Of a stretch of 64,000 nucleotides of DNA, positions 35,401-44,243 are shown piece by piece. The notes beneath the pieces are model-generated. The model did not search any database, had not been told where the DNA came from, and saw only the letters and a program-made list of their open reading frames with translations. Both the position numbers and the translations under genes were made by a program. The DNA is from Candidatus Pelagisphaera phototrophica. Its GTDB lineage: Bacteria; Verrucomicrobiota; Verrucomicrobiia; Opitutales; Opitutaceae. The stretch is from NCBI RefSeq assembly GCF_014529625.1, contig NZ_CP076039.1:3286001-3350000 (forward strand), read 5' to 3'. Position 1 is the stretch's first letter, and the number at the start of each line of letters is the position of its first letter.

Positions 35401-36339
35401 TTAATGGGTTCCGTTACTTGAGTAAGCGTTGCCGTTCAATTCTGATGACGGGGTAGCTCCATTGCCCGAGCCGTTTGCCGTTAGCTCCAAAGGCTTGAAC
35501 GCCAAAGTAATTTCCTCTGCGACAACCGTTTTTTCCCCATTTACCGTAATTTGCCCCGAAAAAACCGCCAAGGGAGTTCTTGCCCGTTTCAATTTGACGC
35601 TTAGATCGAGTATGTCACCCGGTTTGCACACCCGATAGCAACGGACGCCGTCCGCTCCGGTAAAGTAAACTTCTGTAGAATCAATGGCAGACTGAATTTC
35701 TTCTGGAGCCTTCTTTAATAACGAAAAGACGGCGAGCTGTCCTAAAGACTCTAGCATTATGGAAGCAGGAAATACGGGGTTCCCTTTGAAGTGTCCCTCA
35801 AGAAATTGCTCTCGACCCGAAATTGTATACCGTCCAACCGCATCTCGATCTGACAAGTTTACCTGCTCCAAAAACAAAAAGGGCTCTTGCTGCGGCATCA
35901 CTGCCGCCACCTGCTCGATCGAATAGAACTCACTCTTGCCTCCCTTTGAAATTCCCGTTAACTTCTCCTCTATGAACGATTTCAAATCACCAATCGATCT
36001 CAGATTCATCAGCTCGTCATTTTTGACCGATACACCAAGGGACTCTTCTACCATCATTATGGCTTCTATCATGGTCAACGAATCCATCCCCAAATCTTCC
36101 ATAAATTGGATTGAATCGTCGCCGCTTCTGAGCTTACCCACGGCTTCAGGATCAAGAAATCGCTCCACGATCCCCAAAACGATCACAGGTACAAAGGCAC
36201 TGTCTTTCGTGGTTCGGTAATTCAAAGCGGCCTCCAACGTAGCCGAAGAGCACCGTTTTAAAGTCTCCCTCAGCAACGCCTCGCTCCCGGAAGTTGGCGA
36301 TCCTGCGATTTTTTCCCTAGTAATTGTCTGGTCTGACAT
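35401..36339 (-). CDS. Fusion of acyl carrier protein and FabZ/FabA-like hotdog domain
   Basis: 312 residues from ATG 36339 (an ATG at 36354 adds five). An N-terminal segment is followed by an ACP domain with LGMDSLTMIEA (phosphopantetheine Ser about residue 87), then a hotdog dehydratase-like domain (about 140-290) with GHFKGNPVFPASIMLESLGQ, including the usual Glu. The FabZ motif PHRYPF is replaced by PQQEPF (about 149-154), so the catalytic His is missing. The C-terminal 20 residues are Gly/Asn/Ser-rich. With the ketosynthase downstream it probably belongs to a specialised acyl-chain system. Possible roles: inactive scaffold, altered chemistry, or a chain-binding protein. Confidence 0.85.
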   Translation of the reverse strand: MSDQTITREKIAGSPTSGSEALLRETLKRCSSATLEAALNYRTTKDSAFVPVIVLGIVERFLDPEAVGKLRSGDDSIQFMEDLGMDSLTMIEAIMMVEESLGVSVKNDELMNLRSIGDLKSFIEEKLTGISKGGKSEFYSIEQVAAVMPQQEPFLFLEQVNLSDRDAVGRYTISGREQFLEGHFKGNPVFPASIMLESLGQLAVFSLLKKAPEEIQSAIDSTEVYFTGADGVRCYRVCKPGDILDLSVKLKRARTPLAVFSGQITVNGEKTVVAEEITLAFKPLELTANGSGNGATPSSELNGNAYSSNGTH

Positions 36340-36409
36340 TGTTAAGGATAGCAAAGGTCGCAGTGGCAGGTTTGTAAATCCTAAACATGGCTCTTTAAAA
36401 TAGAAATTG

Positions 36410-38199: not shown

Positions 38200-39405
38200 T
38201 CAGCTGGTTAAAGCTAGCTTCTCTTCCCACCACGAATATTCCTCCAGCGTCGCTTCATCGTCTTCTGATCGCCGCGACTCGTCTAGAATCTTGCTAGCTC
38301 GCTCGCTAAAAAGGCGATATAAAGCCCACACGGCATGCGGCCTGACTATAGCCTCCTCACATTGAGCGAGCGACTGCAATGCCATCTTCACTCGATTTAG
38401 CCAGTCTGGATCATCTACTTCGCCCCATTCGTTCGGCTCGTGCAAATTCCCCGCGACAATACACGCATTCCTCAGAAGCCCTCTCAATTTCAGTCTCTTA
38501 ATTGGAGTCTTTCTAAAAACTGTACGAAACATTTCCCTATCCATATTAAGGATATCCAGTAATCCCAGTTCCCCGATATCGTAGCGACTGCTCAACAAGA
38601 ATTGTTTCCCGGACTTCGCAAATCGATTCCAGGGACAGACATCGAGACAAATGTCGCACCCGAATATTTGGCTCCCGATTCCAGAACGTATTTCTCTAGG
38701 AATGATACCCTTATTCTCGATCGTTTGATAGGAAATGCATCTATTGGCATCAAGCAATCCCGGCTCTACAATCGCATCGGTAGGACAGGAGTCTATGCAG
38801 CGCCGGCATTTCCCACACAGCAGCCCCATCTCAATATCGTGAGCAGATTCACTTTGTCGTTTCTTCAGAGGCTGATCTGGTTCTATTTCAAGTTTGGTGA
38901 TTAATGTAGCAAGCAGAAGCCAATTACCATGCGTCTTGGATATCAGCATTCCATTCTTTCCTTGCCAGCCCATACCAGAAGCTGCCGCCCAACCTCTTTC
39001 CATCACAGGACCAGTATCAACATAGTAACGATAATCACTGGAACTAAGCTCGTAGCGCTCCTCCAGAAATACCCCCATTTTTTTCAATCCTTTCAAGACA
39101 GTGTCGTGATAATCATCATACAAACTATATTTTCCCCAACGCTTTTGACTCCGTGCTTCCAGCTCGGTCGGCAAGTAATTAACACCTAGCATAATCACAG
39201 AACATGCATCTTTTAGAACCAACTGCGGATCGAGGCGTTTCTCAATTGAGTTCTGCAGCCACTTCATGTCCGCGTGATACCCAAGCTCAATCCACTCCTC
39301 TAGCCGATTGGGAGCAATCGGGCTCAGATCGGTAAAGCGCACTTCATCAAAGCCAAGCTCCTCAAGTTCTCCCCTGAGACCTTCTTTCTCCACTTCTCCA
39401 ATCAT
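38200..39405 (-). CDS. queG: Epoxyqueuosine reductase
   Basis: 401 residues. Cobalamin-dependent reductase that makes queuosine from epoxyqueuosine in tRNA. Two ferredoxin-type 4Fe-4S motifs are visible: CGKCRRCIDSCPTDAI and CDICLDVCPWNRF (about residues 195-265). The N-terminal domain has the QueG-type segment VIMLGVNYLP, and the C-terminal HEAT-like part has VRPHAVWAL. It overlaps aroK by 4 bases on the same strand. Together with the fusion at 40 kb, it is the second tRNA-modification gene within 2 kb. Confidence 0.95.
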   Translation of the reverse strand: MIGEVEKEGLRGELEELGFDEVRFTDLSPIAPNRLEEWIELGYHADMKWLQNSIEKRLDPQLVLKDACSVIMLGVNYLPTELEARSQKRWGKYSLYDDYHDTVLKGLKKMGVFLEERYELSSSDYRYYVDTGPVMERGWAAASGMGWQGKNGMLISKTHGNWLLLATLITKLEIEPDQPLKKRQSESAHDIEMGLLCGKCRRCIDSCPTDAIVEPGLLDANRCISYQTIENKGIIPREIRSGIGSQIFGCDICLDVCPWNRFAKSGKQFLLSSRYDIGELGLLDILNMDREMFRTVFRKTPIKRLKLRGLLRNACIVAGNLHEPNEWGEVDDPDWLNRVKMALQSLAQCEEAIVRPHAVWALYRLFSERASKILDESRRSEDDEATLEEYSWWEEKLALTS

Positions 39406-39956
39406 GAATCTGCTTTCCAGAATCGAGCTTCGCTTCGGTAAATACGAATAACGTGGGAAGCTATATCAGAGATAGTGCGTCCATCCGTCAGAACTTCAGT
39501 GCCCGCTTTTTTGTAGATCGGTTCACGTTCACTCAGTAGTTCACAAATTCTGGACATCGGATCCTCGACATTCAGCAAAGGGCGTTTCTTATTTCCCTTA
39601 ATTCGTTCGTACACCGTCTCAGGCGAAGCTAGCAAGCAAACGACCGGACCCAGACTACGTATCTTCTTCAGCATTCCTTGCTGGGCGATGAGTCCCCCAC
39701 CGCAAGACACGACACAAGACGCTTTCGGGTGGCCACTTTCAACGAAAGACTTTTCCAACTTACGAAAAAAAGCCTCACCCTCAGTATCGAAAATCTGTCT
39801 GATTTCCCGCCCCTCCTTTTCTTCGATCGCACGATCGCTATCAAGGAAGCGATACTTTAGACGCTCCGCAACCGACCTTCCAACCGCACTCTTACCGGTC
39901 CCCATAAATCCTACTAGGTATAAATTTGGTTTTGCTTGATTACGATTGCTTATCAT
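39402..39956 (-). CDS. aroK: Shikimate kinase
   Basis: About 184 residues from ATG 39956; an upstream in-frame ATG at 39977 is possible. It phosphorylates shikimate in aromatic amino-acid synthesis. The Walker A motif LVGFMGTGKSAVGR, the shikimate-binding FLDSDRAIEE, FRKLEKSF and the substrate motif VVSCGGGLI are present. It begins the aroK-queG operon (4-base overlap). Confidence 0.95.
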   Translation of the reverse strand: MISNRNQAKPNLYLVGFMGTGKSAVGRSVAERLKYRFLDSDRAIEEKEGREIRQIFDTEGEAFFRKLEKSFVESGHPKASCVVSCGGGLIAQQGMLKKIRSLGPVVCLLASPETVYERIKGNKKRPLLNVEDPMSRICELLSEREPIYKKAGTEVLTDGRTISDIASHVIRIYRSEARFWKADS

Positions 39957-40045
39957 GGGATTGCGCCAACTTTTCACGAAAGGCTTGTTTCTTTATATCA
40001 CCTGGAAAGATAGTCTAGGCGATTTATTAAACGAAGAAACCCGTT

Positions 40046-41692
40046 ATGGTCACCAATACAGGAGAATACGATTGCCTCATATTTGGAGGGGGGTTGGCAG
40101 GGTCTGTTCTCGCGTGGACCTTGATAGAGGAAGGTAAACGGCCCCTCCTCATTGGCAATACCGGAAAATCCCGATGCTCCCATGTGGCTGCAGGACTCAT
40201 CAATCCGATCGGAGGCAAGCGGTTAAACCTAGTTTGGGAAGCAGAGAGACATATTCTCTATGCTCGAAATTTTTACCTCCGACTCCAATCGAAATTCGAT
40301 CGCCAATATTACGCGGAACGAAGAATCGCCCGGATTTTTTCCGGCGACAAGGAGCAAAAGCTGTGGGATGCGAAGAAAAAAATAGTCGCGTACAAAAAAT
40401 GGACCTCACCACTTACCAAAGAGGATATTCCAGATGCTTGTAGTACGAAAGAGCTTTTTGGATTTGCCATAAAAGGGGCTGGAATTGTTAAGATTTCAGA
40501 ACTAATTGGAGACGTACACGAGGAGCTCGCTCAAAGAGACGCTATCGAAAATACTGACTTTGACTACCAGGATATCGGGTTTAAAAATGATCGTGTAACC
40601 TGGAGAAGTTCCAATGCTCCCATCGCTGTATTTACGGAAGGCCACCTCGCTACAGACAATCCTTGGTTTAAGTTCGTACCATACCGACCAGCCAAAGGAG
40701 TCATCGGCCGCATTAAGACCAATGTTCAGCTATCGGATACCATTATCATTCAAGGAAAGTTCCTCATTCCCAGGCAAGATGGATCAGCGATTGTTGGAGC
40801 TACATACAATTGGGAAGACAGGAGCGACGAACCCGACAGGAATGGAATAGCCGAAATCGAATCTTTCCTGAGAAAGCTCATGGGCAACCATTGGAGCTGG
40901 TTGGAGATTTTCGCTGGCGTACGACCTACAATTCCGGGGGCGATGCCGGCAGTTGGCCCACACCCAGAACAACGAAATTTATTTTCATTCAACGGATTCG
41001 GTAGTAAAGGTGCCACTCAAATTCCCATCCTCGCAGACGGACTTTATAGATTCATATGGGAAGGTAAGCCACTTCCTAAAGAGATCTTGCCCGCCCGATT
41101 CAAAAAAGAGCCAAATCCACTTTCCAAAAGGTGGATTGCAGTGGAGATCGCCCGTGATCGCGTAATGCGGCACCTTAAACCAGGTGACACTGCCATAGAT
41201 GCAACAACAGGGAATGGTCACGACACACTCTGGCTTGCCCAATCAGTAGGTCCTAATGGAGATGTATATGCATTCGACATACAAGAGTGCGCGATCGATA
41301 TTGCTAGAAAAAAAATCGACAATTTAAGTATCGAAACCCAAACTACATTTCTAAAGGCCTGCCATTCTCGAATGATGAGCCAACTACCCTTAAACATCAA
41401 GGCCAAGGCAATACTCTTCAACCTCGGCTACCTGCCCAAAGGAGACAAGTCAATCGTCACGAGAATTGACACCACCATTTCAGCCTTGGACCAGTCCCTT
41501 ACGATTCTTCATCCCAATGGAATCATCAGTATCGTCATCTATCCTGGACATCAAGGTGGCACTTCAGAAGCTGACGGAATATTGAATTGGACCCAATCAA
41601 TCGACGACAGCTCATATGAAACGGAATTCGTATCCAACCCCTCAGGAAATCCGAAATCCCCCCATCTCCTTTTTATTCAAAAACGTGCCTAG
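40046..41692 (+). CDS. Fusion of FAD-dependent amine oxidoreductase and MnmM-type tRNA methyltransferase
   Basis: 548 residues, two domains. Residues 1-350 are a DAAO-type FAD oxidoreductase: LIFGGGLAGSVLAWTL binds FAD, AAGLINPIGGKRLN follows, and the late FAD/substrate motif GVRPTIPGAMPAVG is near 291-304. Residues 360-548 match B. subtilis MnmM (YtqB) motif by motif: AIDATTGNGHDTLWLA (384-399), FNLGYLPKGDKS, VIYPGHQGG and the end SPHLLFI. MnmM methylates 5-aminomethyluridine at the wobble base of tRNA; the FAD domain of MnmC removes the carboxymethyl group that precedes this. Joined, the two would perform both steps, as MnmC does in Gammaproteobacteria but with a non-homologous methyltransferase and reversed domain order. 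Domain calls are firm; the combined function is inference. Confidence 0.9.
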   Translation: MVTNTGEYDCLIFGGGLAGSVLAWTLIEEGKRPLLIGNTGKSRCSHVAAGLINPIGGKRLNLVWEAERHILYARNFYLRLQSKFDRQYYAERRIARIFSGDKEQKLWDAKKKIVAYKKWTSPLTKEDIPDACSTKELFGFAIKGAGIVKISELIGDVHEELAQRDAIENTDFDYQDIGFKNDRVTWRSSNAPIAVFTEGHLATDNPWFKFVPYRPAKGVIGRIKTNVQLSDTIIIQGKFLIPRQDGSAIVGATYNWEDRSDEPDRNGIAEIESFLRKLMGNHWSWLEIFAGVRPTIPGAMPAVGPHPEQRNLFSFNGFGSKGATQIPILADGLYRFIWEGKPLPKEILPARFKKEPNPLSKRWIAVEIARDRVMRHLKPGDTAIDATTGNGHDTLWLAQSVGPNGDVYAFDIQECAIDIARKKIDNLSIETQTTFLKACHSRMMSQLPLNIKAKAILFNLGYLPKGDKSIVTRIDTTISALDQSLTILHPNGIISIVIYPGHQGGTSEADGILNWTQSIDDSSYETEFVSNPSGNPKSPHLLFIQKRA

Positions 41693-41703: not shown

Positions 41704-43902
41704 CTATTCAAACAGTTCTTTCTGATCTGTGTTCTTCACCAAATCTGGGTGAAAAGGAGCGTAGCGTTTCCTCCAGTCATCCATTTTTTTAATGTAGTAC
41801 TTCGGATCATACGGAGCTGTTTCTACATCGAAAAACTCCACTGGATTAGCCCGTTGCCAGTCTGTGGTTTGACCTTTTTCCTTAGGAGAAATATAGTAGG
41901 ATATACGATCTCCCATCCGAGCATTCTCTCCCAATTTCAACGCGACCTCCGCTGAAGCGCGCCTTGGTTTCCCTCCGGAATCGATCTTCTTTCTATACGC
42001 TTCTGGATTCTGGCTCAAAATCTCGGATTTCGCGAGACTCTTGACAGGGAAATCACTCTTTTCAATTTTGGACTCTATCTCAAGTGCGAGCGTTACTGGA
42101 TCTTCCTCAGAAGCCCCTAGTAGAAAACGAATCAGCTTTTGCGTGAGTGATCTTAAGAAAGGCTCTACACCGCGAGATCTCATTGCCGAGCCTCGGATGA
42201 TGACTTTGGCACCATCGTAAAGCGCGTAATTCTTCGCTTTGTAGCAAAACATCGCCTCGTAGCGACCGTCATATTCCAACTCTATTCCTTCAGGTAAAAC
42301 TTCTTGCGCCTGGCGAAGCAACCTTCCCGGATCGTCAAAGTATTCATTCGCCTCGACGTAAATACCATCTGTATCCGCTTCCAGAGGAGAGCACCCTACT
42401 CCTTCAAAAAAGGTTATGAGAGACAGGAGGATCTCCCGACCTTTTGCCGTCACTTCAGCGGCAAGGTTCGCATCGCCAAACCGAGCTCCCGCAAAACCCA
42501 GATAGCCATAAAACGAGTTTATGAGAACCTTGAAGCTAGTCTGCCGCGCATTGTATTCTGATGCCAATACCGAATCCTTCGATTCCTGAGCCAGCTTTTT
42601 AAACTTCATTCGATACTCACGCAACTGTCGTAACATGGGAATAAAGACCCCCTCTGTGTCTGGCTCGGGATTACGGCCAATCAAAAGCAACAAACTAGGA
42701 TAAAGAGAGGCGACATCGAAATGCAGCACTCGTTTGAAAACGCCATCCTTGAAACTCGCCGTATACCCTCCGGCAAATGTATGTGACTCGCTCGGGAATG
42801 GGCACGCTGCTTCCAAATGGAAGTACTTCTCCTGAAAAACGAGATCAACCTTACTTGCCGTACCCCTTAAACAAGCCTCCTGCAAGGTGGTGGGAAATGC
42901 TTTCGTTTGCTCGAAGTAAGTCGGGAGCAAACGGTCCGCGACCCCTTTGGTCTCCCTGAGATCGTCCCGCAAATAGCCCAAGAAACGATCACGATCATCC
43001 TCAAACATGTACTGAATATCTGAACCCTCAATGTAGACTCGATCTCCTCCATCATCAGGAGTCACTCCCATATATCGGGCTACGTCTTTCAGTCCGTACG
43101 ACATCAGTTCTCTCTTTGTGATGTCATGTATTTGAATAAGGATAAACGTATCCACAACTTCTCGACCGGGAAGGTCGCAGCGCGGATAGTCAATCCAACG
43201 TTCCGCCACCCTTAATCTACTGTTTCTAAAAGCCGCCTTCTGCCCAAACCGACCCCATTGCATAGGGACCTTCAATTTCTGACACCTACGTCTCAGATAC
43301 TCAAAATCGAATTTGAATATATTATGCCCCTCGACCACATCGGGATCCCAATCCTGGAACCGTTCGTTCAACTGGCACAACAAATTCCGTTCCGCCTCGT
43401 CCGTTCTTTCTGCAAGAACGAATGTTTCGAGTTTCTCCCCACATTGAACTCCAATCGCGAGTACCCGATCCTCTTTTCGTTTCGGATCACTGAAACCTCC
43501 CTTTTCTGAACAAGCAGTCTCGATATCCAGCTGCATTCGCCGCAATTCCAAAAACGGCATTTCTTCAAAAAGCCGTGTCTGATGGGAGAGCAAATACTGC
43601 TGCTCCAATTGACGTATCCAGTCTATGGAACCTGTTCGCCTCTTCTCTTTTACAAACTCGCGGTAATCCTCGATATCCTCGAACGCTACCAGATGATTAT
43701 AAGCCGCGCTTCCGGACAACGAAGTAACGGACGCACCGACAACAAGATCGCCGAGGGCGTTATCCATCGCCCACACGAAAGGTGAGAATCCGACAATTTC
43801 CGTTTTTCGAGCTCCCTCTCCGTCATCCCAAGCAAGATGAGTCTGTCCTTCAGGACTAATCCAAACGCCGCAAAACGCAGGTCCTGAATCCCCAACCGAC
43901 AT
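41704..43902 (-). CDS. Family B DNA polymerase
   Basis: 732 residues from ATG 43902, whose A overlaps the TGA of the preceding gene (TGATG), so translation is coupled. Exonuclease motifs are intact: LDIET (125-129), GHNIFKFD (192-199), YLRDD (311-315). Polymerase motifs are DVASLYPS (396-403), KVLINSFYG (459-466) and ADTDG (509-513, the metal-binding DTD). So proofreading and polymerisation should both be possible. Like E. coli Pol II, bacterial family B enzymes often serve in damage tolerance; this one is in an unusual setting. A frame extends upstream to 44046, but that part overlaps the membrane-protein gene. The C-terminal 130 residues are not a family I recognised. Confidence 0.9.
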   Translation of the reverse strand: MSVGDSGPAFCGVWISPEGQTHLAWDDGEGARKTEIVGFSPFVWAMDNALGDLVVGASVTSLSGSAAYNHLVAFEDIEDYREFVKEKRRTGSIDWIRQLEQQYLLSHQTRLFEEMPFLELRRMQLDIETACSEKGGFSDPKRKEDRVLAIGVQCGEKLETFVLAERTDEAERNLLCQLNERFQDWDPDVVEGHNIFKFDFEYLRRRCQKLKVPMQWGRFGQKAAFRNSRLRVAERWIDYPRCDLPGREVVDTFILIQIHDITKRELMSYGLKDVARYMGVTPDDGGDRVYIEGSDIQYMFEDDRDRFLGYLRDDLRETKGVADRLLPTYFEQTKAFPTTLQEACLRGTASKVDLVFQEKYFHLEAACPFPSESHTFAGGYTASFKDGVFKRVLHFDVASLYPSLLLLIGRNPEPDTEGVFIPMLRQLREYRMKFKKLAQESKDSVLASEYNARQTSFKVLINSFYGYLGFAGARFGDANLAAEVTAKGREILLSLITFFEGVGCSPLEADTDGIYVEANEYFDDPGRLLRQAQEVLPEGIELEYDGRYEAMFCYKAKNYALYDGAKVIIRGSAMRSRGVEPFLRSLTQKLIRFLLGASEEDPVTLALEIESKIEKSDFPVKSLAKSEILSQNPEAYRKKIDSGGKPRRASAEVALKLGENARMGDRISYYISPKEKGQTTDWQRANPVEFFDVETAPYDPKYYIKKMDDWRKRYAPFHPDLVKNTDQKELFE

Positions 43903-44243
43903 CAGAAAGGTCGAAAGTAGACCATGAACACCGCTATTCCAACCGAGACTACTAGGCCTGCTTGAATGAAGGATTTCGACTTCTTGTACGCCATTCCACC
44001 TAGACCCGAGACAAACAGCCAAGCCAAAATCTTCACAATGACCCAACCTTGCCCGAAATTGTTATTGTGCAACTTCGCCATTAACCCAAAACCTCCGACA
44101 AAGGCGATCAGGGCAAGGATCCCCGTAACGATCGCCATGATCTTCTTCTTGTGCTTTTGCGGGTTCGCTGCAATCGCAAAAGTTAATCCAGTCAGAAGGA
44201 TAATTGAAAAAACGTGTAAGAAATAATAGATCTTTGGATCCAT
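43902..44243 (-). CDS. Small membrane protein coupled to the polymerase gene
   Basis: 113 residues with about three or four hydrophobic helices (about 7-26, 35-55, 68-83, 93-110). No family was recognised with certainty. Short charged loops contain HKKK and KKSK. Its stop codon shares a base with the polymerase start, and the 336-base gap upstream has no other gene. It may simply be a neighbour, but the coupling implies equal dosage. Confidence 0.75.
   Translation of the reverse strand: MDPKIYYFLHVFSIILLTGLTFAIAANPQKHKKKIMAIVTGILALIAFVGGFGLMAKLHNNNFGQGWVIVKILAWLFVSGLGGMAYKKSKSFIQAGLVVSVGIAVFMVYFRPF

Follow-up and report, generated by a model that had tools for sequence, protein, structure and literature searches.

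A fused FAD oxidase and MnmM methyltransferase of Opitutales as a probable analogue of MnmC in wobble uridine modification

How are the last two steps leading to mnm5(s2)U34 in tRNA carried out in a bacterium where no MnmC can be found? The question is raised by a gene of Candidatus Pelagisphaera phototrophica, located in a stretch of 64,000 nucleotides of its chromosome (named here the window), which associates in a single frame a FAD-dependent oxidase of the DAAO/glycine-oxidase fold and an MnmM methyltransferase. MnmM, MnmC and MnmL are each already known, and a fused oxidoreductase-methyltransferase had been expected, yet not found, in a comparison of three Gram-positive genomes (PMC9976899). 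We give a probability of about 0.82 to the view that the protein is a bifunctional enzyme that converts cmnm5(s2)U34 into mnm5(s2)U34, a non-orthologous analogue of MnmC built in the reverse order; its activities, their sequence and its substrates are what we infer from the comparisons below. It would probably complete, in this way, a key modification of the tRNA anticodon. Fusion proteins are reportedly mentioned in the abstract of the work that Jaroch et al. 2024 devoted to alternative pathways for mnm5s2U, so that the FAD-MnmM or the MnmL-MnmC(m) architecture may already be listed there.

The gene and its two halves

The features that matter for the argument are as follows.

40046..41692, + strand: fused gene, FAD-dependent oxidase (DAAO/glycine-oxidase fold) followed by MnmM methyltransferase, 548 aa
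40046..41095, + strand: FAD oxidase half, residues 1-350, with GGGLAG at 14-19, VGATY containing G251, AGVRP containing R293, and NGFGSKG at 316-322
41096..41140, + strand: linker, residues 351-365, the interior stretch of lowest confidence in the structural model (mean pLDDT 63 at 351-360)
41141..41689, + strand: MnmM half, residues 366-548, with R370, D393, N459, Y462, K468, Y499 and H502
39402..39977, - strand: aroK (shikimate kinase), divergent from the fusion
38200..39405, - strand: queG (epoxyqueuosine reductase), overlapping aroK

The frame begins with ATG and is free of internal stops over its 548 codons. Pfam recognizes the DAO family (PF01266) at residues 9-331 with 76.6 bits and the YtqB family (PF06962) at residues 407-542 with 132 bits, both above the gathering score, and the methyltransferase region, taken as residues 366-547, comes after the FAD domain. 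A sequence-only reading of this DNA had proposed one protein of 548 residues with a DAAO-type FAD domain and a methyltransferase, and the intact frame with its two matches bears it out; the methyltransferase motifs that it quoted, VIYPGHQGG and SPHLLF among them, are indeed present. The AlphaFold2 model of the whole protein has a mean pLDDT of 93.7, with a pTM of 0.72 that leaves the relative placement of the domains unfixed.

The second half matches the MnmM equivalog of NCBIfam (NF053511) at residues 366-547 with 188.7 bits for a cut-off of 135, so that its assignment to YtqB/MnmM, advanced from the motifs, stands, and by this curated sequence standard the protein ends in a complete MnmM. 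In the PDB this half is best matched by 3eey and by the MnmM/YtqB structures of Bacillus subtilis and Staphylococcus aureus, onto which the modelled half superposes within about 1.7-2.5 Å (TM 0.85-0.93 of target); the model thus has the class I methyltransferase fold of MnmM. In the B. subtilis enzyme, mutation of K11, D34, N101, Y104, K110, Y141 or H144 abolishes activity (PMC9976899). Six of these seven residues are identical in the fusion, from D34 onwards corresponding to D393, N459, Y462, K468, Y499 and H502, and K11 is replaced by another basic residue, R370, at a position where 3eey and 3lby have a histidine.

The first half reaches 71.7 bits with the MnmC1 model (TIGR03197, cut-off 174.2) and 69.0 bits with that of the glycine oxidase ThiO (TIGR02352, cut-off 250.8), and those of its relatives that were scanned likewise remain below both cut-offs; with two scores so similar and so far under their thresholds, its substrate could be an N-substituted glycine other than cmnm5U. 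A tree places this oxidase family and the FAD domains of classical MnmC in separate clades, with SH-aLRT values of 99 and 100, and, its root being weak, does not settle how the two are related. As far as sequence comparison goes, the FAD half is a distinct DAAO clade and not an orthologue of MnmC1. Its AlphaFold2 model (pLDDT 93.5, pTM 0.92) retrieves glycine oxidases as the top Foldseek matches, MnmC appearing from rank 16, and the closest PDB sequences are glycine oxidases too.

Among 140 MnmCs, six positions of the FAD domain are conserved in more than 98% (PMC3648344); these residues, G271, G273, G518, R567, G578 and G619 of the Escherichia coli enzyme, align with G14, G16, G251, R293, G304 and G322, while no counterpart of E. 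coli R653 was identified in the FAD half. A motif G-x-G-[SA]-[KR]-G is found as GSKG in the FAD half and as GSRG or GARG in MnmC1, and is absent from the ThiO sequence examined. MnmC1 itself resembles glycine oxidase in structure (PMC3648344), and as cmnm5U is an N-substituted glycine, the chemistry of its oxidation would fit the FAD half.

Origin of the fusion and the company of its parts

Could the fusion be an artefact of assembly or annotation that merged two neighbouring genes? Such an accident is conceivable to the extent that, in relatives, the separate genes overlap by 4-23 bases (some of them by just 4) or nearly touch, so that a small error would be enough to join them. We nevertheless hold it to be extremely improbable. 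The genome of the organism is a single contig of 4.09 Mb, and the fused frame is found in seven Opitutales assemblies, that of the window and six others (G308/L040 with 93% identity, G287/L041, G337/L038, L042, L043 and L055) that share 35-93% identity; the named records among them are metagenome-assembled genomes of Opitutales or Opitutaceae. The order FabZ/ACP, glycosyltransferase, thioesterase, queG, aroK, fusion, polB, proS is conserved in the loci that extend far enough. Trees built for each half, as had been suggested beforehand, recover the fusions as one clade, with 91 SH-aLRT for the FAD half and 98/93 for the MnmM half, which fits a single fusion event. Between the window and L040 the dN/dS ratio is 0.15 in the FAD half and 0.26 in the MnmM half, which indicates purifying selection on both. 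Longer open frames noticed around MnmM in some other genomes (L010, L027) showed no fusion to a recognized domain.

The vicinity of queG, a gene that had been invoked because its product also modifies position 34, is in our opinion of little help: it lies on the opposite strand, overlaps aroK, and these Opitutales are the only genomes where the linkage was seen to be kept, so that we treat it as uninformative. On the other side, the fusion adjoins a gene for a chromosomal family-B DNA polymerase with an exonuclease domain (41704-44046, - strand; PF00136, PF03104), and does so in Opitutales relatives as well. Farther away, at 35401-36354 (- strand), an acyl-carrier domain is fused to a FabA/FabZ-like domain (PF00550 and PF07977).

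The fusion derives from a widespread gene pair, where an oxidase gene of the same family lies directly upstream of, or overlaps, a stand-alone mnmM. This is the arrangement of other Verrucomicrobiota and of gamma-, beta- and zetaproteobacteria. A survey of 388 Verrucomicrobiota genomes, where MnmM was counted when above its cut-off, found the oxidase family in 62 of the 62 genomes that encode MnmM and in 23 of the 326 others (Fisher p 6e-53, uncorrected for the relatedness of the genomes). By gene coordinates, the two are fused in four of the 62 genomes, adjacent in 17, and located elsewhere in the rest. MnmL is missing from 57 of these genomes, the five remaining ones having it as well, and PF05430, the methyltransferase family of MnmC, is met in only two, both times as a fusion with Tgt and not as MnmC. 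Six of the 23 genomes that have the oxidase family without MnmM, all from one family (f28), pair it with a stand-alone MnmC(m); five of these six also have TIGR01212. Twelve genomes from the family to which the window's organism belongs have a divergent clade of the oxidase (L174-L185) and no MnmM; seven of them encode a PF05430 protein of the size class of the Tgt fusions, and five have no evident partner.

Beyond the phylum, 36 genomes were picked from a search for the oxidase. The presence of MnmM in 22 of them, with the oxidase beside it or fused to it, results from this selection, whereas the other entries are independent results: PF05430 occurs in none of the 22, and MnmL is absent from 20. 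The other 14 are Bacteroidota with the oxidase alone. None has MnmM, 13 have a stand-alone PF05430 protein (open frames of 227-275 aa), and MnmL is above its cut-off in none of the 14. In these loci (L044-L119), which come from Pontibacter and its relatives, the oxidase stands alone, and the neighbourhood of these Bacteroidota oxidases has no evident link to tRNA-related genes. In a plasmid collection, no relative of the FAD half was found.

Proposed activity and its rivals

The genome of the window encodes adjacent mnmE and mnmG as well as mnmA, all above their cut-offs. No match to PF05430 was found in the fused protein or in the genome, nor any match in the genome to the radical SAM first-step partner MnmL (TIGR01212), so that no candidate other than the fusion was found for these two final steps; the expectation that mnmE and mnmG would be present in the absence of mnmC was thus correct. 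We may picture the process as follows. MnmEG would first install cmnm5 on (s2)U34. In a second step the FAD domain at the N-terminus would bind the N-substituted glycine of this group, with R293 as the anchor of the carboxylate, and oxidize it to an imine, the hydrolysis of which would release glyoxylate and leave nm5(s2)U34. The C-terminal MnmM domain, using SAM, would finally N-methylate this intermediate to mnm5(s2)U34. MnmM follows a U33-U34-U35 rule (PMC9976899), which makes the tRNAs for Lys, Glu and Gln the most likely substrates. The gene itself would go back to one event, in which an oxidase gene and an mnmM gene that were adjacent or overlapping became fused.

It is possible to understand the FAD half otherwise, as a small-molecule oxidase of the glycine or sarcosine type, for example ThiO-like, that an operon fusion happened to join to an MnmM half which alone acts on tRNA. 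The proximity of glycine oxidases, both in PDB sequence and in fold, speaks for such a view, as does a ThiO score about as high as that of MnmC1. That score of 69 bits is nonetheless far from the ThiO cut-off of 250.8, the motif G-x-G-[SA]-[KR]-G is missing from the ThiO examined, and no thi genes are seen beside the fusion. An oxidase of small molecules would, moreover, have to account for its presence in every genome of the phylum that has MnmM (62 of 62), for the position of the oxidase gene beside mnmM in several lineages, and for the way the family follows stand-alone MnmC(m) in Bacteroidota. We consider this explanation unlikely. Somewhat less likely still is that the FAD half acts on another intermediate of the wobble uridine, MnmM methylating nm5U that MnmEG makes directly with ammonium. 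Such a direct synthesis is described for E. coli (PMC3936742), and on that account an oxidase would not be strictly needed to feed MnmM. Fold and arginine position, considered together with the MnmC structural work (PMC3648344), rather point to an N-substituted glycine as substrate, which is what cmnm5U is, and the coupling of the oxidase to two unrelated nm5U methyltransferases suggests that it supplies the substrate of both.

The reading of the fusion as a cmnm5(s2)U34-to-mnm5(s2)U34 enzyme invites a broader one, to which we give slightly better than even odds: the FAD half would represent a third family of cmnm5U34 oxidases, orthologous neither to MnmC1 nor to MnmL, pairing interchangeably with MnmM, in Verrucomicrobiota and several Pseudomonadota, and with stand-alone MnmC(m), in Bacteroidota, and fused by Opitutales into an MnmC of reverse order. 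An MnmC(o)-like enzyme still to be recognized is to be expected, according to PMC9976899, in organisms such as Bacteroides whose mnmC(m) is an orphan, and the oxidase family is a strong candidate for it. If this is true, the gap left by that study would be filled, and an unnamed family of oxidases would be the partner that MnmM and the orphan MnmC methyltransferases have been lacking in several phyla. The fusion would play here the role of a Rosetta stone, hinting at what a DAAO family that is widespread but unnamed may do, and it makes testable what supplies nm5U in organisms that have MnmM or an orphan MnmC(m) without MnmC1 or MnmL.

Other assemblies of the same steps

MnmC (E. coli b2324; PDB 3awi, 3ps9, 3pvc, 3sgl) likewise holds in one protein an FAD fold of the cmnm5U-oxidase type, with conserved residues that the fusion shares, and an nm5U methyltransferase. 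Its methyltransferase is a PF05430 domain at the N-terminus (residues 1-245 in E. coli, locus L039) that precedes the FAD domain, whereas that of the fusion is a PF06962 domain at the C-terminus, so that the statement that MnmC uses another family in the opposite order proves accurate; its FAD domain is TIGR03197, that of the fusion a separate clade below this cut-off. MnmM/YtqB of B. subtilis, S. aureus and plants (PDB 8h0s, 8h1b) has catalytic residues in common with the C-terminal half, but stands alone, not behind an oxidase. In Gram-positive bacteria the first step is attributed to the radical SAM protein MnmL (PMC12548931), in agreement with the NCBIfam naming of TIGR01212, so that MnmM has there, in the MnmL/YtqA-MnmM pathway, a partner other than the FAD oxidase of the fusion, for the same two chemical steps. 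ThiO (PDB 1ng3, 1ryi, 4ysh) shares with the FAD half its fold, the position of the arginine and the chemistry of N-substituted glycines, and differs by the missed TIGR02352 cut-off, the lack of the GSKG motif and another gene context.

The opposite choice of families is also met in the phylum. At L200:1123-2955 (+ strand), MnmL (TIGR01212, 296.5 bits) is fused to MnmC(m) (PF05430, 93.9 bits), again uniting first-step and second-step enzymes, and frames of about 555-670 aa of this kind, mostly judged from shared open frames, are present in about 70 more Verrucomicrobiota genomes. The last two steps towards mnm5(s2)U34 would thus have at least three one-protein assemblies made of interchangeable, unrelated parts: MnmC, the oxidase-MnmM of Opitutales, and the MnmL-MnmC(m) met elsewhere in the phylum. 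The PF05430 matches of the window's family were considered as possible classical MnmC and rejected, those checked being fusions of the queuine tRNA-ribosyltransferase Tgt (about 460-480 bits) with a divergent MnmC2-like methyltransferase (PF05430, 44-53 bits), of which the one that was scanned does not reach the MnmC2 cut-off (NF033855). These Tgt fusions are found in relatives of the window's organism, at L193:1344-3371 (-), L194:4-1998 (+), L196:1466-3640 (-), L198:155-2200 (+) and L199:1316-3361 (-).
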